From a virus, in IMG/VR virus record IMGVR_UViG_3300036853_000288, positions 1 through 45,912 of that record: a stretch of 45,912 bases of DNA. One strand, written 5' to 3'. The position numbers were made by a program, and so were the translations under genes. Shown here one piece after another: positions 1,475-45,912 of this stretch (its first letter is position 1; every line of letters starts with the position of its first letter). The notes under the pieces are model-generated. The model did no database searches. It saw only the letters and a list, made by a program, of their open reading frames with translations, and was not told the origin of the DNA.

Positions 1475-1626
1475 GATCCATCCCCATCCTTCGGCGCCCC
1501 CGCGGCCACCAGCGCCGTTTCGATCACGTCCTGCTGCGTACAGCGACGTTCAAATGCTTGATCCTTCACCCATTTCAACTGACGACGGGTTAACCGTAGC
1601 GTCGTTGCCTGACGTTCTTCATCCAT
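1471..1626 (-). CDS. Ribbon-helix-helix-like small protein, paralog of 41244-41423
   Basis: A 51-residue protein (MDEERQATTLRLTRRQLKWV...). A short beta strand (TTLRLT) followed by two helices (RRQLKWVKDQAFERR and TQQDVIETALVAAGA) fits a ribbon-helix-helix DNA-binding fold. It closely resembles the product of 41244-41423 in the same positions, so the genome carries two paralogs. The ATG at 1626 is six bases after a TACATT -10 box, again a leaderless arrangement. It may be a regulator; its target is not known. Confidence 0.6.
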   Translation of the reverse strand: MDEERQATTLRLTRRQLKWVKDQAFERRCTQQDVIETALVAAGAPKDGDGS

Positions 1627-1632
1627 GACATC

Positions 1633-1638
1633 AATGTA
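1633..1638 (-). promoter_or_regulatory. -10 box of leaderless promoter for 1471-1626
   Basis: TACATT on the minus strand ends six bases before the ATG at 1626. No convincing -35 and no GATGCAT core are present, so this is a weaker member of the promoter set. Confidence 0.4.
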
Positions 1639-1654
1639 TACCACGAACCCCGAA

Positions 1655-1867
1655 CACCGCACACCGCGCACAGGCGCACACCCCTAAGAGAGGGGGGTGT
1701 GCGCCCTTGCTGTGCGCTTCGGTCCTGTGCTGTGTTGTGCGCTGTGCTGTGCGCTATCTGAGCAGGGAAAACAATGTTCGATTCATCGATCTGTGACGCC
1801 CTGTGCGGGCACTGTGCGGGCGCACAGGTGGATCATGCTGTGCGCTTACTTGTTCGCTATATAGACT
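1655..1867. other. Iteron-rich candidate replication origin
   Basis: This noncoding stretch between the small-protein operon and the replication gene holds eleven copies of TGTGCG or its complement: plus strand at 1698, 1711, 1736, 1748, 1802, 1813 and 1839, minus strand at 1658, 1667, 1675 and 1821. An AT-richer island (about 1769-1790) and another near 1850-1870 interrupt the repeats. It directly adjoins the 3' end of the Rep-like gene. Iterons plus an AT-rich segment next to a replication gene are the usual arrangement of an origin, but no function has been shown here. Confidence 0.5.
1673..1705. terminator. Strong palindrome inside the iteron region
   Basis: GGCGCACACCCC (1673-1684) pairs perfectly with GGGGTGTGCGCC (1694-1705) around a 9-base loop. 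The arms contain two inverted TGTGCG units, so it may be an origin hairpin rather than a terminator. There is no T-run on either side. Confidence 0.4.
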
Positions 1868-4147
1868 TTACCGAGAGTCACCAGACTCGGGCCTGACGAC
1901 CGACCAGCCCTCCGGTGGGGCCTCTTCGGGGGTCCAGGTGTTCATGGTCAACAGGCCATCAGCGGCACCGTCCGGTGGCGGGTAGACGCCGAATCGTTGC
2001 GAGCTTCCTTCACGTATGACCCGTCCACGCGACACCAGCAGATCCCATGCTCGTGTCGCGGCCATGCGCCGGGCCCCCGGGTGGAGGGCGGCGATCTCTG
2101 GCGCCTCTTTGAACAGCCCCTTGATCGCGTCGCGGGTAATGCCCTCACCGCGATGTTCCCGGGCCTTCGCGACCAGCTGGTACATGAGGAGGGCCCGACG
2201 CTTCGACACGTCGCGCTCGGTGTCCGGCGTCTCGGCCAGCATCGGCACCTCGGTGTGGTCGACGACGAGCGAGGAGAGGTCGCGGCCGGTCGTCGGGTCG
2301 AAGCCACCCTCGGAACGCTTCAATGACATCTTGATCGGCGGCGCTTCGGCCTGGTCCTTCTGCTTGTCCATGTGCAGGTCGACCACGTACATCGATCCCT
2401 CGGGCTTTTCTACACGCAGCTCGGCGTCCTGTGCGCCGTCCAGCGCCGAGGCGCCGCGGGCGTTCTTGCCGCTGCGCCCGGTGTGGTGCACGGTCAACAC
2501 GCAGGCGCCGGTCGCGACCCGCACGGCATCGACACAGGCGACGTAACGCCCCATGTCGGTGTTGCTGTTCTCCTCCAGCCCCAGCGTCACCCGAGCCTGT
2601 GTGTCGAGAATGACGAGTGCCGGCCGCAGCCGCCGGCACGCTTCGACCAGCACCGCCCATGCCTGCTGGTCGTTGGCCTGGACCGGCCGCGGCAGAAACC
2701 TGATCGACTTCAATGGTCCGTATTCGCGTTCCCACGCGTCGACCCGAAGGCGCATCCCTCGCGCGCCCTCGGCCACGATGTAGACCACGTCGCCCTGGTG
2801 TACGTCGTGGCCGCGCCACGGCCGGCCGAGGCCGACATGCGCAGCGATGTCCAGCGCCACAAAGCTCTTGTAGCTACCGCTCTCGCCGATCAGCCAAGCC
2901 GTCGTATCAAGATCAAGTAATCCGTTGATCAACGGTTGCGGTGGCGCGATATTGCGCAACGCATCGACATCGAGCATCTCGGACAGCAACGCGTCGATCG
3001 GGTCCCGATCCTCGCTGTGCGCCCCCTGACCTGCGCTGTGCGCCCCTGTTCGCCCGTCATCCACAGTCCCATGCACACCCTGTGGATAACTCCCGACCCC
3101 CGCCGTACCCGCCCCGGGCCCACCACCCAACAACGGCGGAGCACCCGGGGCACCGGCGAAATGGATCACGTCACCACCCCACCCGGACGGCCCGCCCACA
3201 CCGCTGAGGTCAGCCGGCCGGTCGCCCACGTGCCGCTCGGCACTGGCCCAGACCCGCAACAGCTCGACGTCCGGCACGCTCACCGACCGGTCGGGATGCG
3301 CCAGCCCGGCCGCCCACCACGCGGCGTAGACGCTCTCCGCCCCGACCAACCCAGTGTTGATCATCTCGATACAGCGCGCGGCAGCGCGCCAGGCCCGTTG
3401 ATTACGCTGCGTCCAACACCCGCGCAAAGCAGCGAGCTCCCCGTTGACGGCTGCCACCACGTACGCACCCACTTGGTCGGCCGACGTCGCGGTGAACGTC
3501 GTAGCCGGCGCCACGGCCCGCGGCGGCGTCGGGCGCACGGCGTCGAGCACGCCGGCGGGCGCCGCGGTGACCGGTCGATCCTGCAGCACGGTGTACGGCC
3601 CGACGCCGGAGACGCTGGGCGCGAGCACGATCTGCCCGCCGCCGCTCTCCCCGCGCCGCGCGCCACGCACGTCGAAGCCCTTGGGTAGCCGGCCGCTGCC
3701 GTTGTTCGGCACGAAGTCCTCGGGCAGGGCGAAGACGAAGTGCCACCCTCCCGAGCCGGTCTGCTGTACCCACGTCGCCGCGGCCCAGCAGTCGGCGAGC
3801 ACCCGAGCCACCTCGTCGGCCTGCGCCGGGTCGACGCTCTTCGGGTCGTAGTCCAGCGCCCACACCCCGCTGATCAGCCCGGTGGCGAGTCCCCAGTTGC
3901 AGGACGGCCAGCGCGCCGCAGCCGCCGCCAGCCCGCCCTCGTCGCGCACGAGGTGCTCCGGCCGCTGCCATTGCGACACTCGAGGATGCTTGCCGGCTGA
4001 GCGGCACGCCGTCCCGAGGTCGCACGAGCAGGCCCCCGACGACACATCATGTAGGGGAACCAGGGCCCAACCGCGCGCTATGTAGTGACGAACCTGCGGC
4101 AAGCGAACGTCCATGATATCGTTCAAGGCGGATTCTCCATCCAGCAC
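1868..4147 (-). CDS. Primase-polymerase / RepA-like helicase replication protein
   Basis: A 759-residue replication initiator. Residues about 15-200 look like a bifunctional primase-polymerase (prim-pol): catalytic D-Y-D at 99-101 (WALDYDP) and GSGGWH at 131-136. Residues about 400-640 look like a RepA/AAA_25-type ATPase: Walker A GESGSYKS (421-428), Walker B LVILDT (511-516) and LTVHHTGRSG. The Gly-rich linker (about 330-390) is encoded by DNA with DnaA boxes and repeats. GTG at 4147 has a GAGGG upstream; ATG at 4114 is an alternative start. The protein probably primes and unwinds phage DNA at the adjoining origin. No separate DNA polymerase gene is visible. Confidence 0.85.
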   Translation of the reverse strand: MLDGESALNDIMDVRLPQVRHYIARGWALVPLHDVSSGACSCDLGTACRSAGKHPRVSQWQRPEHLVRDEGGLAAAAARWPSCNWGLATGLISGVWALDYDPKSVDPAQADEVARVLADCWAAATWVQQTGSGGWHFVFALPEDFVPNNGSGRLPKGFDVRGARRGESGGGQIVLAPSVSGVGPYTVLQDRPVTAAPAGVLDAVRPTPPRAVAPATTFTATSADQVGAYVVAAVNGELAALRGCWTQRNQRAWRAAARCIEMINTGLVGAESVYAAWWAAGLAHPDRSVSVPDVELLRVWASAERHVGDRPADLSGVGGPSGWGGDVIHFAGAPGAPPLLGGGPGAGTAGVGSYPQGVHGTVDDGRTGAHSAGQGAHSEDRDPIDALLSEMLDVDALRNIAPPQPLINGLLDLDTTAWLIGESGSYKSFVALDIAAHVGLGRPWRGHDVHQGDVVYIVAEGARGMRLRVDAWEREYGPLKSIRFLPRPVQANDQQAWAVLVEACRRLRPALVILDTQARVTLGLEENSNTDMGRYVACVDAVRVATGACVLTVHHTGRSGKNARGASALDGAQDAELRVEKPEGSMYVVDLHMDKQKDQAEAPPIKMSLKRSEGGFDPTTGRDLSSLVVDHTEVPMLAETPDTERDVSKRRALLMYQLVAKAREHRGEGITRDAIKGLFKEAPEIAALHPGARRMAATRAWDLLVSRGRVIREGSSQRFGVYPPPDGAADGLLTMNTWTPEEAPPEGWSVVRPESGDSR
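3014..3089. other. DnaA boxes and GCTGTGCGCCCC repeats inside the Rep linker
   Basis: A perfect DnaA box TTATCCACA lies on the minus strand at 3081-3089. A one-mismatch box TCATCCACA lies on the plus strand at 3057-3065. Two exact copies of GCTGTGCGCCCC start at 3014 and 3034, 20 bp apart, and extend the TGTGCG iteron of 1655-1867. All sit in the low-complexity linker codons (about residues 353-378), where protein constraint is low. This supports a second origin element or an autoregulatory site. Confidence 0.5.
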
Positions 4148-12904: not shown

Positions 12905-13141
12905 ATGACCGAGAAGGCACCCACGGACGCCGAGCTGGCCGAGCGACACGACAAGGCGCAGGCGCTGCGGGCGCGCCAATGGGCCGCGAACGCGAAGCTG
13001 CGCCAGGCCACAGCCCGACCGTTCGCCACGCTGCAGCAGGTGAAGCGCCCGATCCTGGTCGAGGTGGCGGACGCGTACGGTATGCCGATGGCCGCGAACG
13101 CTACCAGGAGCGAGCTCATCGCCTTCATTGAGTCGATCTAG
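12905..13141 (+). CDS. Small protein with a SAP/HeH-like C-terminus
   Basis: A 78-residue helical protein (MTEKAPTDAELAERHDKAQA...). The C-terminal ILVEVADAYGMPMAANATRS-ELIAFIESI resembles a helix-extended-loop-helix or Rho-N/SAP-type DNA-binding motif. It is the first gene of the methyltransferase operon, two bases before the next start. Confidence 0.6.
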   Translation: MTEKAPTDAELAERHDKAQALRARQWAANAKLRQATARPFATLQQVKRPILVEVADAYGMPMAANATRSELIAFIESI

Positions 13142-13142
13142 A

Positions 13143-14519
13143 ATGACGATCACGATCGGCTCCCTGAGTTCCGGGTACGGCGGGCTGGAGATGGCGCTGG
13201 GCCTCTGGCTCGGCGCGGTCGACGTGCGTTGGCACAGCGAGATCGATACCGACGCGTCGCGGGTGCTCAAGACGTGGTGGCCCGAGGTGCCGAACCTCGG
13301 TTCGTTCGCCGATGAGGACTTCTGGGAGTGCGCCGAGCGCGTGTATCTAATGTGCGGCGGCATCCCCTGTCAGCCGTTCAGCGCGGCCGGCCGCCAGCAG
13401 GGTGAGGCCGACCACCGTCACCTCTGGCCGTTCTGGCGGCGCGGCATCGCACTGCACCGGCCGGCAACGATCGTCTTCGAGAACGTCGCCAACCTGACCC
13501 GCGGCAAGATGCGCCCGATCTTCGACGGCATCGTGGCCGACCTACTCGCGCTGGGCTATGACGTGCGCTGGTGCCTGCTGGGCGCCTGCGCGGTCGGCGC
13601 CGCCCACCACCGGCACCGCGTCTTCCTGCTCGCCTGTCGCTCCCGCACCACACCGCACGCGCGCCAGGTCCAGGTGGCGACGTGCGGCCAGAAGCTCGCC
13701 GCCTACCTCCCCACTCCGAGCGCGGTCAGCTACGGCAGCAACCGGGGCGGCGGTGCCGGTCGCGTCGGTCCGGTCCGGCATTCGCTGGACAGCATGGCGC
13801 GTGCCGAGTTGCTCCCTTCGCCAGCCGGCCGCGACGGCTCGACGCGCGGGGAGGGCAGCGCGGAGTTCTGGGGGCGCCGTCGCGAGCTCGGCGGCACGCG
13901 CGCGGTCGCGGGGATCACACTCGGTGCCGCCGTGACGCTGCTCGCCACGCCGCAGCATCGCGACGGGCGCGAGCCTTCCTCGACGCTGAGCGCTGAAACT
14001 GCGGCTCGCCGGGAAGCCGCCGGCAGGCGGAACCTCGAAGACTCGGTGGCCCTGCTGCCGACTCCCCGCAGCGTGGACAGCACGCGCGGCCCAGCCGCTG
14101 CCGATCGGACCCGCCCCGAGAGCAATGGCCAGGATCTGGCGCAGGTGCTTGTCGCGCTCCTGCCGAGTCCGCGCGTCACCGACGCGCGCAACGGGGGACC
14201 GAACCAGGGCATCGCCTCGGGGGACATCGCACTGCCCAGCGCCGTCCAGCCCGAACGCTGGGGCCGCTACGCCGAGGCCATCGCGCGGCATGAGACGGTG
14301 CTGGGCCGACCGGCGCCGGAGCCCACCGAGATCGGGCCGCGGGGCGGCCGCCGGCTCGCCGCCGCCTTCAGCGAGTGGCTGATGATGCTGCCCGAGGGAC
14401 ACCTCACCTCGGTGCTCGACCGCAATCCCGCCCTCGCGCGGGCCGGCAACGGCGTGGTGCCGCTGCAGGCCGCGACCGCATTGCGCCTGCTGTTCGAGGA
14501 TCTGGTGCGCCGGCGTTGA
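13143..14519 (+). CDS. DNA cytosine-5 methyltransferase
   Basis: A 458-residue enzyme that should transfer a methyl group from S-adenosylmethionine to C5 of cytosine. Motif I is GSLSSGYGGLEMALG, motif IV GGIPCQPFSAAGRQ (catalytic Cys), motif VI FENVANL, motif VIII-like HHRHRVFLL, and motif X AGNGVVPLQAATA near the end. The middle (about 195-350) is unusual: five repeats of the type LLPTPRxxD, in place of a plain target-recognition domain. It probably protects phage DNA from host restriction. No cognate endonuclease is seen. The start at ATG 13143 follows the previous stop directly. Confidence 0.9.
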   Translation: MTITIGSLSSGYGGLEMALGLWLGAVDVRWHSEIDTDASRVLKTWWPEVPNLGSFADEDFWECAERVYLMCGGIPCQPFSAAGRQQGEADHRHLWPFWRRGIALHRPATIVFENVANLTRGKMRPIFDGIVADLLALGYDVRWCLLGACAVGAAHHRHRVFLLACRSRTTPHARQVQVATCGQKLAAYLPTPSAVSYGSNRGGGAGRVGPVRHSLDSMARAELLPSPAGRDGSTRGEGSAEFWGRRRELGGTRAVAGITLGAAVTLLATPQHRDGREPSSTLSAETAARREAAGRRNLEDSVALLPTPRSVDSTRGPAAADRTRPESNGQDLAQVLVALLPSPRVTDARNGGPNQGIASGDIALPSAVQPERWGRYAEAIARHETVLGRPAPEPTEIGPRGGRRLAAAFSEWLMMLPEGHLTSVLDRNPALARAGNGVVPLQAATALRLLFEDLVRRR

Positions 14520-30576: not shown

Positions 30577-31932
30577 TCAGGTGATCGCCCCGACGATGGT
30601 GCCAGTATGCACGGTGATCGAGCCAACAGCGAGAGGCAGCGGCCCGTGCGCGTTGCCGACCAGCCCCGTAGGGGTCGACGTGCTGACCGTCACCGCGCCC
30701 ACGCCGGCCGCGGCGAGCACGGTGCTCACGGCGAACGTCGAGCTGGTACGGAACGTCGGCACGCCGACCGACGCCACGGCGGCCGCCGTCGCCGGCGTGA
30801 TGGCCGCCGACAGCGCGATCGTCGGCGCGCCGACCGTGGCCGCCGCCGAGACCTTGACCGCCGTGACAGTCTGGTCGGCGCGTAGGGAAGGCGCGCCGAC
30901 CGTCGCGACGGCGGCCACGGTGACGCCTGAGACGCTGGCGCTCCCGCCGGTGGAGATGCTCGGCGCGCCCACAGTGGCGACGGCGGCCACCACGGCGGCC
31001 GAGACCACCTCGCCGGTCGAGAACGTGAGGGCGCCGACGCTCGCCACGGCGGCCACGGTGGCGGGTGAGACCGCGGTCCCGGTCTGCACGGTCGGCGCGC
31101 CCACGGTGGCGACCGCCGCGACGACGGCCGGCGTGATGACCACGGACAGGCGAATCGTGGGCGCGCCGACCGTGGCCACGGCCGCGACCGTCGTCGCCGT
31201 GACCGTCTCGCCGGTCTGCAGGGTCGGTGCGCCGACCGTCGCCGTGGCCGCGACCACCGACGCCGAGACGCTGGCGTCGCCACTGCTCAGTGCGACGGAC
31301 AGCAAGCTACCCAGCAGGGCCCCGCGTCGGTCGCTGGTAGCACAGGTGGCCGTGAGCGAGCCGGTGGCGCCGGCCGTGGTCTGGGCGAGGGTGTCGACGG
31401 TGAGGGTGGCATCACCGGTATCGAGCCGCTCGGTGAAACCGGTCACCGGAGTCCAGGCGCCGCCGCCCCAGTTGCTGCCGCTGAACCACTTCAGTTGATC
31501 GTTGTTCTGCGTGGTCATCGAGACGGCCGGCGTCACGCCTGAGGTGATGTCGGTTGCCGTGGCCGCCGCCGTGCCGATGCCGCTGTTGGTGTCCCACGGG
31601 TCGCCGGTCGCCACGCAGCCATCGACCCGACTGGCCACCCCGTTGCTGTAGACGTTGGCGCTCAGGCCCACGGTGTACGTCGCGCCGGCCGGGTTGCGGG
31701 CCCAGAGCCGCACGATCTTGTGCTCGCCGCCGCCGCTCGGGTTGATCGTCAGCGGACTACCGGCGACGTGCGCGAATCCGGTCGGCAGAGAGCTGATCGT
31801 CGCACCGGCATCGAGGTACATGTCGATGATCACGATGCTGGTGCTGACGATGGAAGCCGGCGCGGCGAATGCCGGGCTGGCCGTGCTGCCCTGCCGGTAG
31901 GTGCCCGCTACGCCATACGTCGGTGCGGCCAC
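30577..31932 (-). CDS. Structural protein with nine 20-residue repeats
   Basis: A 451-residue protein starting GTG with GGAGGG upstream. The first 200 residues form a beta domain (lectin- or fibre-like, with NPSGGGEHKIVRLWARNPAG). From about 225 to 425 nine units of the type AAVATVGAPTxxTGxxVTPA follow each other. Such regular Val/Ala/Gly-rich units suggest a long beta-solenoid or fibre. It lies in the head/connector region and could be a head fibre or decoration protein. Its partner is unknown. Confidence 0.6.
   Translation of the reverse strand: MAAPTYGVAGTYRQGSTASPAFAAPASIVSTSIVIIDMYLDAGATISSLPTGFAHVAGSPLTINPSGGGEHKIVRLWARNPAGATYTVGLSANVYSNGVASRVDGCVATGDPWDTNSGIGTAAATATDITSGVTPAVSMTTQNNDQLKWFSGSNWGGGAWTPVTGFTERLDTGDATLTVDTLAQTTAGATGSLTATCATSDRRGALLGSLLSVALSSGDASVSASVVAATATVGAPTLQTGETVTATTVAAVATVGAPTIRLSVVITPAVVAAVATVGAPTVQTGTAVSPATVAAVASVGALTFSTGEVVSAAVVAAVATVGAPSISTGGSASVSGVTVAAVATVGAPSLRADQTVTAVKVSAAATVGAPTIALSAAITPATAAAVASVGVPTFRTSSTFAVSTVLAAAGVGAVTVSTSTPTGLVGNAHGPLPLAVGSITVHTGTIVGAIT
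30717..31270. repeat. Degenerate tandem repeat of about 60-66 bp
   Basis: On the plus strand GGCGCGCCGACCGT-like blocks recur roughly every 60-66 bases. They encode the VGAPT units of the overlapping protein. Copies differ at many third positions, so selection has kept the protein repeat rather than the DNA. Confidence 0.65.
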
Positions 31933-44323: not shown

Positions 44324-45912
44324 CGCCGCACCCACGCCGGCAGCGCGTTGTCGATGCGCGCCGAAGCGTACGCCACGGTAAGCATCTTGCGAATCTCGCC
44401 GGGCGTCGCATCCTCGGGCACCGGGAAGCCGACGCGCCGCGCCTCGGCGCGCGGTGACGACGAGCGCCAACCCAGATCGGGCACAAACGCCCGGCCGGCG
44501 CTGTGCCGGTAGACCATCGCGTCGCGCTCGTCGTCGGTGATCTCGCCGGTGGCGTGCGCCATGGCGTAGCTCAGATCCGAGACCCGCTCCATGACCCAGT
44601 CAGAGACGCCGCTGCGCGTCCGGTGAACCCAGACCACCCCGTACCCGCCATCGACCCGCGGGAGGACGGCTACGTAGCGCTCAGGGGCCGCAAGGAACCA
44701 AACGCCGGCGTAGGTCCGCAACCATCCGGCGTCGGAGCCTTCGAAGAGATCAACGACCTCGGTGACCAACTTCCCGTCGCGGTACGTCGGCGCTTCGTCG
44801 AGCCCGAGCAGATGATCAATCTCCGCCTGTTCCTCGGCATCATCAAGGTCCTCGGCGTCGCCGTCCGGCCCGAGCAACTCGGTCGCGTCCTCGATCGTGA
44901 CGCCTTCCTCGCCCCACAACTCGATCGGTGCGGCGAGCCGATGCCGACCGGTGGCTCCCACCACGTCAAGCACCACGCAGTCGGTCTTGCCCGGCCAGAG
45001 CCGTAGGCCGCGGCCGACCATCTGCACGAACAGCGCGGCCTGCATGGTCGGCCTGGCGATCACGATGCACGACGTCATCGGCAGGTCGGTGCCTTCGGTG
45101 AAGACCATGGCATTGCACAGCACCTGCACGGCGCCGTCGCGGTAGGCCTGCAGGATGCGCCGGCGCTCGTCCTTCGGCGTCTTGGCCGAGACCACCTCGG
45201 CCGTGAAGCCGCCCTCTCGCAGCGCATCGCGGATCACGTCGGCTGTCTCAACCAGCGGGGCGAACAAGATCGTCTGCCGGTTGGCGGCGTGCTCGCGCAT
45301 CGCTTCGACGATCTTCTTGGGCGCCATCGAGTCCTCGATCGCCGCCCCGAGTCCGGCCTTGGAGAAGTCGCCGGCGACCTTGCGCACCTTGGACAGGTCG
45401 AGATCCTCGACCCGCACCCGAATGCCGACCGGCCCGACGAGGTACCCCTCGGCCTTGAGCTCGGCAATGTCCTTGACATAGACGATGTCCTGCCAGACGT
45501 CGCCGAGCGCCTTGTCGTCGCCGCGGCTCATCGTCGCCGTGAACCCCAGCGCCCGGGCGCCACCATCCCGCATGCACCCGAAGTGATCAAACACCCGCAG
45601 GTAGCTCTCGGCCGCCGCGTGGTGTGCCTCGTCAATAATCACCAACCCGACGTCGTGCAGCTGCCGCAGACGCATGTCGCTGAGCAGCGTCTGCACCGAC
45701 GCACTGATCACGTGCCCCTGCGTCTCGTTACGCCCCGCCATCACCACGCCGGTACGCAGGTCGGGCGCGACGTCGCGCACCTTCTGCGCATTCTGCTCGA
45801 CCAGCTCTTCGCGGTGCGCCACGATAACCGTGCGCTTCCCTCCGGCTGCCCCGTGCAACGACGTGCGGGCGATCTCGGCCAGGATCACCGACTTGCCGGC
45901 ACCGGTGGCCAG
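44320..45912 (-). CDS. SF2 DEAH-box helicase, C-terminal and central part (runs off window end)
   Basis: The same helicase gene as 1-750, seen from the other end. The frame is open to base 45912 and begins inside Walker A. DEAH in VIIDEAHHA, FTATMSR, and motif VI QMVGRGLRLWPG are visible. After the helicase core an acidic region (LLGPDGDAEDLDDAEEQAEI) and a beta/helix domain of about 150 residues follow; this tail is of unknown function. It should unwind or remodel DNA during replication or recombination. An apparent internal ATG at 45888 is not the true start. Confidence 0.9.
   Translation of the reverse strand: MATGAGKSVILAEIARTSLHGAAGGKRTVIVAHREELVEQNAQKVRDVAPDLRTGVVMAGRNETQGHVISASVQTLLSDMRLRQLHDVGLVIIDEAHHAAAESYLRVFDHFGCMRDGGARALGFTATMSRGDDKALGDVWQDIVYVKDIAELKAEGYLVGPVGIRVRVEDLDLSKVRKVAGDFSKAGLGAAIEDSMAPKKIVEAMREHAANRQTILFAPLVETADVIRDALREGGFTAEVVSAKTPKDERRRILQAYRDGAVQVLCNAMVFTEGTDLPMTSCIVIARPTMQAALFVQMVGRGLRLWPGKTDCVVLDVVGATGRHRLAAPIELWGEEGVTIEDATELLGPDGDAEDLDDAEEQAEIDHLLGLDEAPTYRDGKLVTEVVDLFEGSDAGWLRTYAGVWFLAAPERYVAVLPRVDGGYGVVWVHRTRSGVSDWVMERVSDLSYAMAHATGEITDDERDAMVYRHSAGRAFVPDLGWRSSSPRAEARRVGFPVPEDATPGEIRKMLTVAYASARIDNALPAWVRR
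45253..45912. repeat. Right copy of the 660-bp end redundancy
   Basis: Partner of bases 1-660, same orientation and reading frame. Joining the ends here gives a unit of about 45,252 bp and restores a full helicase gene. In the divergent patch the right copy encodes SVQTLLSDMRLRQLHDVG where the left encodes SVATLAIELRRTQVRDVG. Confidence 0.9.

Follow-up and report, generated by a model that had tools for sequence, protein, structure and literature searches.

Within a viral genome record of 45,912 nucleotides (IMG/VR record IMGVR_UViG_3300036853_000288, here called the window), the segment at 1.64-1.87 kb very probably acts as a cis-acting replication origin bound by the element's own Rep, whether that element is a phage or a phage-plasmid. 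This assignment, made by comparing sequences, is the best-supported reading because the position of a repeat array is shared by 37 of 57 analysed loci, a hairpin within the array is conserved, the same layout occurs on circular plasmids, and a similar plan has been published for plasmid pWTY27 (PMC3583192). The same evidence supports the preliminary description of this DNA, which had proposed that replication starts here and is served by a Prim-Pol/RepA-like protein. The features concerned are listed in Table 1.

Table 1. Features of the candidate origin and of rep in the window
Feature	Position	Strand	Remarks
Small ORF, 51 aa	1471..1626	-	3' of array; ribbon-helix-helix-like by eye only
AT-richer island, 53% AT	1588..1647		Far side of array, overlaps start of small ORF; eighth highest in window
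Main iteron array, 11 x TGTGCG	1658..1844	7 on +, 4 on -	Count of exact copies
Putative origin hairpin	1673..1705	-	Inverted pair of iterons with CCCC/GGGG extensions; CCTCTCTTA loop (rep-sense strand)
AT-richer island, 53% AT	1828..1887		Rep-proximal end of array; sixth highest in window
rep gene	1868..4147	-	Prim-Pol aa 21-198, linker, AAA_25 helicase aa 395-560, predicted winged helix ~aa 643-721
Mini-array, 2 x TGTGCG	3016..3042	+	In rep coding sequence, linker between Prim-Pol and helicase
Second DnaA box TCATCCACA, one mismatch	3057..3065	+	Inverted, 24 nt from first
Perfect DnaA box TTATCCACA	3081..3089	-	In rep linker

The window includes terminase, portal, capsid and tail genes, and a gene for a C-5 cytosine DNA methyltransferase was also observed at 13128-14519. 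Its two ends, 1-660 and 45253-45912, are 94.2% identical over 660 bp, each copy lying inside a helicase gene, and the genome is therefore probably complete and either circular or terminally redundant. The record is classed as linear, but the end repeat suggests a circular or terminally redundant genome that was assembled from strain variants.

Eleven copies of a hexamer on both strands in about 190 bp had been described, and the exact count agreed: 11 copies of TGTGCG span 187 bp, the fuller unit being approximately GCGCACA(G), i.e., CTGTGCGC. Since TGTGCG is under-represented in the 45.9-kb window (34 copies seen, 58 expected), this cluster stands out. The best hexamer cluster per 200 bp had 11 copies, compared with at most 7 when the whole window was dinucleotide-shuffled 60 times, and as a local control, 500 shuffles of the 222 bp around the array gave no more than 5. 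As in iteron-type origins, short repeats above chance expectation were found beside an initiator gene. The second-strongest hexamer clusters, CGCCGA (eight copies) and CCACGG (seven copies) at 30755-31176, are probably coding repeats. The location of the array next to the Rep gene was also borne out, with a correction as to the side: because it is situated between the rep stop codon (1868) and a small same-strand ORF, it lies downstream, beyond the 3' end of rep, and not ahead of the gene. The AT-richer islands noted earlier proved to be two stretches flanking the array, each of which, when scored over 60 bp, was about 3 standard deviations above the mean of 31.5% AT. The GC-skew check suggested in the preliminary description gave no support to the origin reading, with no turn at the array and the detrended extremes located at 8.2 and 38.0 kb.

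The Prim-Pol and AAA_25 domains of Rep were assigned by Pfam. An AlphaFold model built with 34 sequences was poor in the Prim-Pol half and confident for the helicase and C terminus, and the best PDB match of the helicase was RSF1010 RepA (1nlf/1g8y). The C-terminal 100 residues were modelled as a winged helix, and many of the PDB matches to this fold were winged-helix proteins, all with weak E values.

A whole-Rep alignment search of the genome collection returned no match, and a search with the helicase core yielded 29 viral and 80 genomic loci. Among viral relatives, the closest three (58 to 63% identity) lacked a TGTGCG array. At the same place, however, they carried arrays of GCGTTGCA, GGCAACGC and GGACAACG. 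The preliminary description had made its case depend on the repeats being kept in close relatives; the TGTGCG word was lost, but a different word filled the same array position, which strengthens the origin reading. The 37 loci had a significant hexamer cluster, exceeding all 100 shuffles, no more than 400 bp from the 3' end of rep, and the independent arrays are fewer than 37 since near-duplicate loci (L031 to L033 and L029/L030) were included in the count. Control stretches of the same loci were mostly far below the rep-3' clusters. The position is conserved in relatives, as for iteron-type origins. The units differed between lineages and, besides GCGCACA and the three words above, included TGTCCC, GATACACC, GCGTTACA and others. 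As judged by these comparisons, each replicon has its own iteron word, which shifts with the divergence of Rep, and an element would therefore probably fail to recognise the origins of its relatives. At locus L049, a separate cluster of 12 CTGGCCA/TGGCCAG repeats was observed approximately 5.1 to 5.3 kb upstream of the rep end, outside the origin array. No rep-3' array was found in 14 marine viral contigs, and neither array nor hairpin followed rep in the isolate phages NBR1, BFK20 and Gustav, which have more distant Prim-Pol/RepA-like proteins, indicating that not all such Reps go with this plan.

The arrays in relatives sat just past or across the rep stop, many of them overlapping the 3' coding end of rep, and at some Streptomyces loci the array was within the 3' coding part. 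These placements bear on the proposal that the repeats are not an origin but operators of the small ORF, acting as an autoregulated repressor on its own promoter. Small repressors typically have inverted operators in several copies, and the array ends just before the ribbon-helix-helix-like ORF both in the window and in L003, where the 51-aa ORF is conserved. However, the array persists in L002 and L004, where no such ORF was found after it, the ORF had no match in Pfam or PHROG, and copies of the same word also occur inside rep. Together with the overlap of many arrays with the rep coding end, these observations make operators a highly unlikely explanation.

The 12-bp palindrome of the preliminary description proved to be an inverted repeat whose two 12-bp arms (1673-1684 and 1694-1705) match perfectly around a 9-nt loop. 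In most arrays there was one hairpin, in which inverted iterons and C/G runs either formed the stem or flanked it; the loops included CTCTTA, CCTTTA, CCTATA and CCCTTA, among others. From 14 loci we derived a pattern, CYYWTAG in a stem of at least 7 pairs; a pattern test was used rather than a covariance model because automatic alignment put stems with unequal loops out of register. Exactly one such hairpin occurs in the whole window. When applied to other loci, the pattern matched 11 times within rep-3' zones, at 10 loci, and never in the 389 kb beyond these zones; these loci were not blind, some of their hairpins having been seen earlier, which leaves the outside-zone and shuffle controls unaffected. 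Among the 57 rep-3' zones, 23 contained the hairpin, compared with a mean of 0.21 and a maximum of 2 after shuffling. An Rfam search returned no credible family. In literature drawn mostly from outside the subscription journals, we found no description of a CYYWTAG-type loop motif or of iteron-word exchange in this Rep family.

A G+C-rich stem after the rep stop might also be a transcription terminator of the rep operon, with the repeats as by-products. There is, however, no T tract after the hairpin, many array copies lie outside it, and the loop is conserved among loci whose stems differ, most loci having a stem built from their replicon-specific iteron. In pRN1, moreover, a putative terminator is separable from the origin stem-loop that follows the Prim-Pol gene, and only the stem-loop is needed (PMC4234260). 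A terminator is therefore extremely improbable as the explanation of this hairpin, and we retain its assignment to the origin. NrS-1 recognises TTTGGTTA and GTG (PMC8718748), and we considered whether the loop is a start site specific to Prim-Pol. This candidate was weakened when the same loop was found beside Toprim-like primases, at L076 (Toprim score below the Pfam cut-off) and L138 (annotated toprim); the loop is independent of primase type. A motif near AGGTCAGACC was also seen to recur mid-array in L051, L053, L055, L056, L070, L077 and others, whose iterons differ, and it is possibly another fixed origin element.

The same layout was observed on plasmids. In the circular Caenibius phage-plasmid (p1, L137), 12 copies of TGCGGAAG immediately follow the RepA-like gene's stop codon, and in that of Methylobacterium (Methylobacterium currus unnamed4, L138) the RepA-like stop is followed by 8 copies of GCGCAACA and the hairpin. 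Both phage-plasmids are complete, and the RepA-like protein is their only annotated replication initiator. Arrays were also present on a Xanthobacter plasmid and on a 17-kb capsid-bearing Klebsiella plasmid (K. pneumoniae, L139); a Polaromonas plasmid had the hairpin without a clear array. L137, L138 and L139, all three deposited as plasmids, carry capsid, terminase or tape-measure genes and are classed here as phage-plasmids or satellites; their rep/array plan is the same as in the window.

A second site was found inside rep. Two to four copies of the replicon's own word occur in the rep linker of the window, L002 (=L022), L003 (=L023) and L026, about 1.1 to 1.2 kb before the rep stop, and none were detected in the 31 other loci examined. 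The linker copies of L002 and L003 are spaced 10 to 12 nt apart and hence fall into more than one reading frame, an indication that selection acts on the DNA rather than on the protein. The TAT and CCA codons at this site are rare in the genome, where they account for 12% and 6%, respectively, of the codons for their amino acids. An inverted pair of DnaA boxes, 24 nt apart, lies beside the linker site in the window, L003 and L004. With inverted DnaA boxes and copies of the same word together in the linker of the phage clade, the real origin could be this internal site, the 3' array then being a partition or copy-control (incompatibility) locus. We consider this very unlikely, since the mini-array was found in only 4 of 35 loci and perfect boxes in 3, whereas the 3' array is widespread, and the corresponding 3' segment is essential in pWTY27 (PMC3583192). 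With the 3' array as the origin, the linker site of the phage clade probably adds either control, by titrating Rep or by looping from one site to the other, or a contribution of host DnaA.

From the anatomy, conservation and position specificity of the array, we infer how binding, melting, priming and control may proceed. The C-terminal winged helix, our candidate for the word-reading domain of Rep, would bind the TGTGCG iterons on both strands. Oligomers of Rep would form on the array, and the two inverted iterons around the CYYWTAG loop would be extruded or melted into a hairpin, the putative function of this element at the origin. The RepA-like hexameric helicase domain would then be loaded and open the flanking AT-richer DNA, and the first primers would be laid by the Prim-Pol domain or, in relatives, by a separate or Toprim-type primase. 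In Mantel tests, iteron similarity gave a rho of 0.07 (p = 0.11) with the C-terminal domain and of 0.19 (p = 0.01) with the helicase domain; the C-terminal domain was not tracked better.

The chances are about even that these elements form an unnamed, widespread replicon class in which the 3' array, the CYYWTAG hairpin and the RepA-type helicase are fixed while the word and the primase (Prim-Pol or Toprim-like) are exchanged. Its proposed scope takes in actinobacterial and proteobacterial phages, phage-plasmids and integrated elements. If such a class exists, the loop would be its universal part and the iteron word a changeable incompatibility key. High-GC bacteria commonly carry elements of this kind as unannotated prophages and plasmids, few of which have a known origin; an array and hairpin at a predictable spot would allow origins to be found from sequence alone, and these would yield small vectors for actinobacteria. 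The dozens of words with their Reps would also form a natural series on how winged-helix initiators change specificity and how incompatibility groups emerge.

Several known systems share parts of this plan. RSF1010/IncQ RepA is the closest solved helicase structure, and the window likewise encodes a RepA-type hexameric helicase. In IncQ, however, the iteron reader (RepC) and the primase are separate proteins, whereas in the window the helicase and the predicted winged helix form one chain and rep is followed by the array, with no repC. One IncQ2 plasmid examined had neither an array nor a hairpin of this type. The Rep helicase of the staphylococcal SaPIs belongs to another family than the RepA/AAA_25 ring helicase, and that of the window is AAA_25/RSF1010-RepA-like. 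SaPIs have a separate primase, unlike the window, and their Reps are described as using the C-terminal domain to bind iterons that lie immediately downstream of rep (PMC7581432). The window also has its iterons directly downstream of rep. Phage P4 differs in having a Toprim primase and a helicase of another family, and its second cis site (crr) lies outside the alpha gene. P4 alpha resembles the window Rep in combining primase, helicase and winged-helix origin binding in one polypeptide, and its origin has repeats (as cited in PMC4234260). For pRN1 ORF904 and Bordetella phage BIP-1, the origin is a stem-loop 3' of the gene for the Prim-Pol protein (PMC4234260). The crenarchaeal pRN1 protein and BIP-1 thus share with the window a Prim-Pol protein with a C-terminal winged helix and an origin 3' of its gene, but they have an SF3 helicase and a stem-loop of approximately 100 nt without iterons, in contrast to the iterons and AAA_25 helicase found here. 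Prim-Pol replication modules (RepPP) are listed in a survey of AICEs, the available text of which describes no origin for RepPP (PMC3218068). In Streptomyces plasmid pWTY27, repA, repB (primase/polymerase) and an iteron segment of 300 bp are all required for replication; this cis segment was demonstrated by deletion, EMSA and footprinting, in which RepA protected a long inverted repeat but not its loop (PMC3583192). Its repeats are TTCCCAC/GTGGGAAC, and its primase and RepA are encoded by separate genes, whereas they are fused in the window. When compared by published layout rather than by RepA sequence (PMC3583192), the window nevertheless has the pWTY27-type arrangement of a primase/polymerase, a second Rep function (a RepA of 522 aa in pWTY27) and adjacent iterons on both strands with a long inverted repeat.
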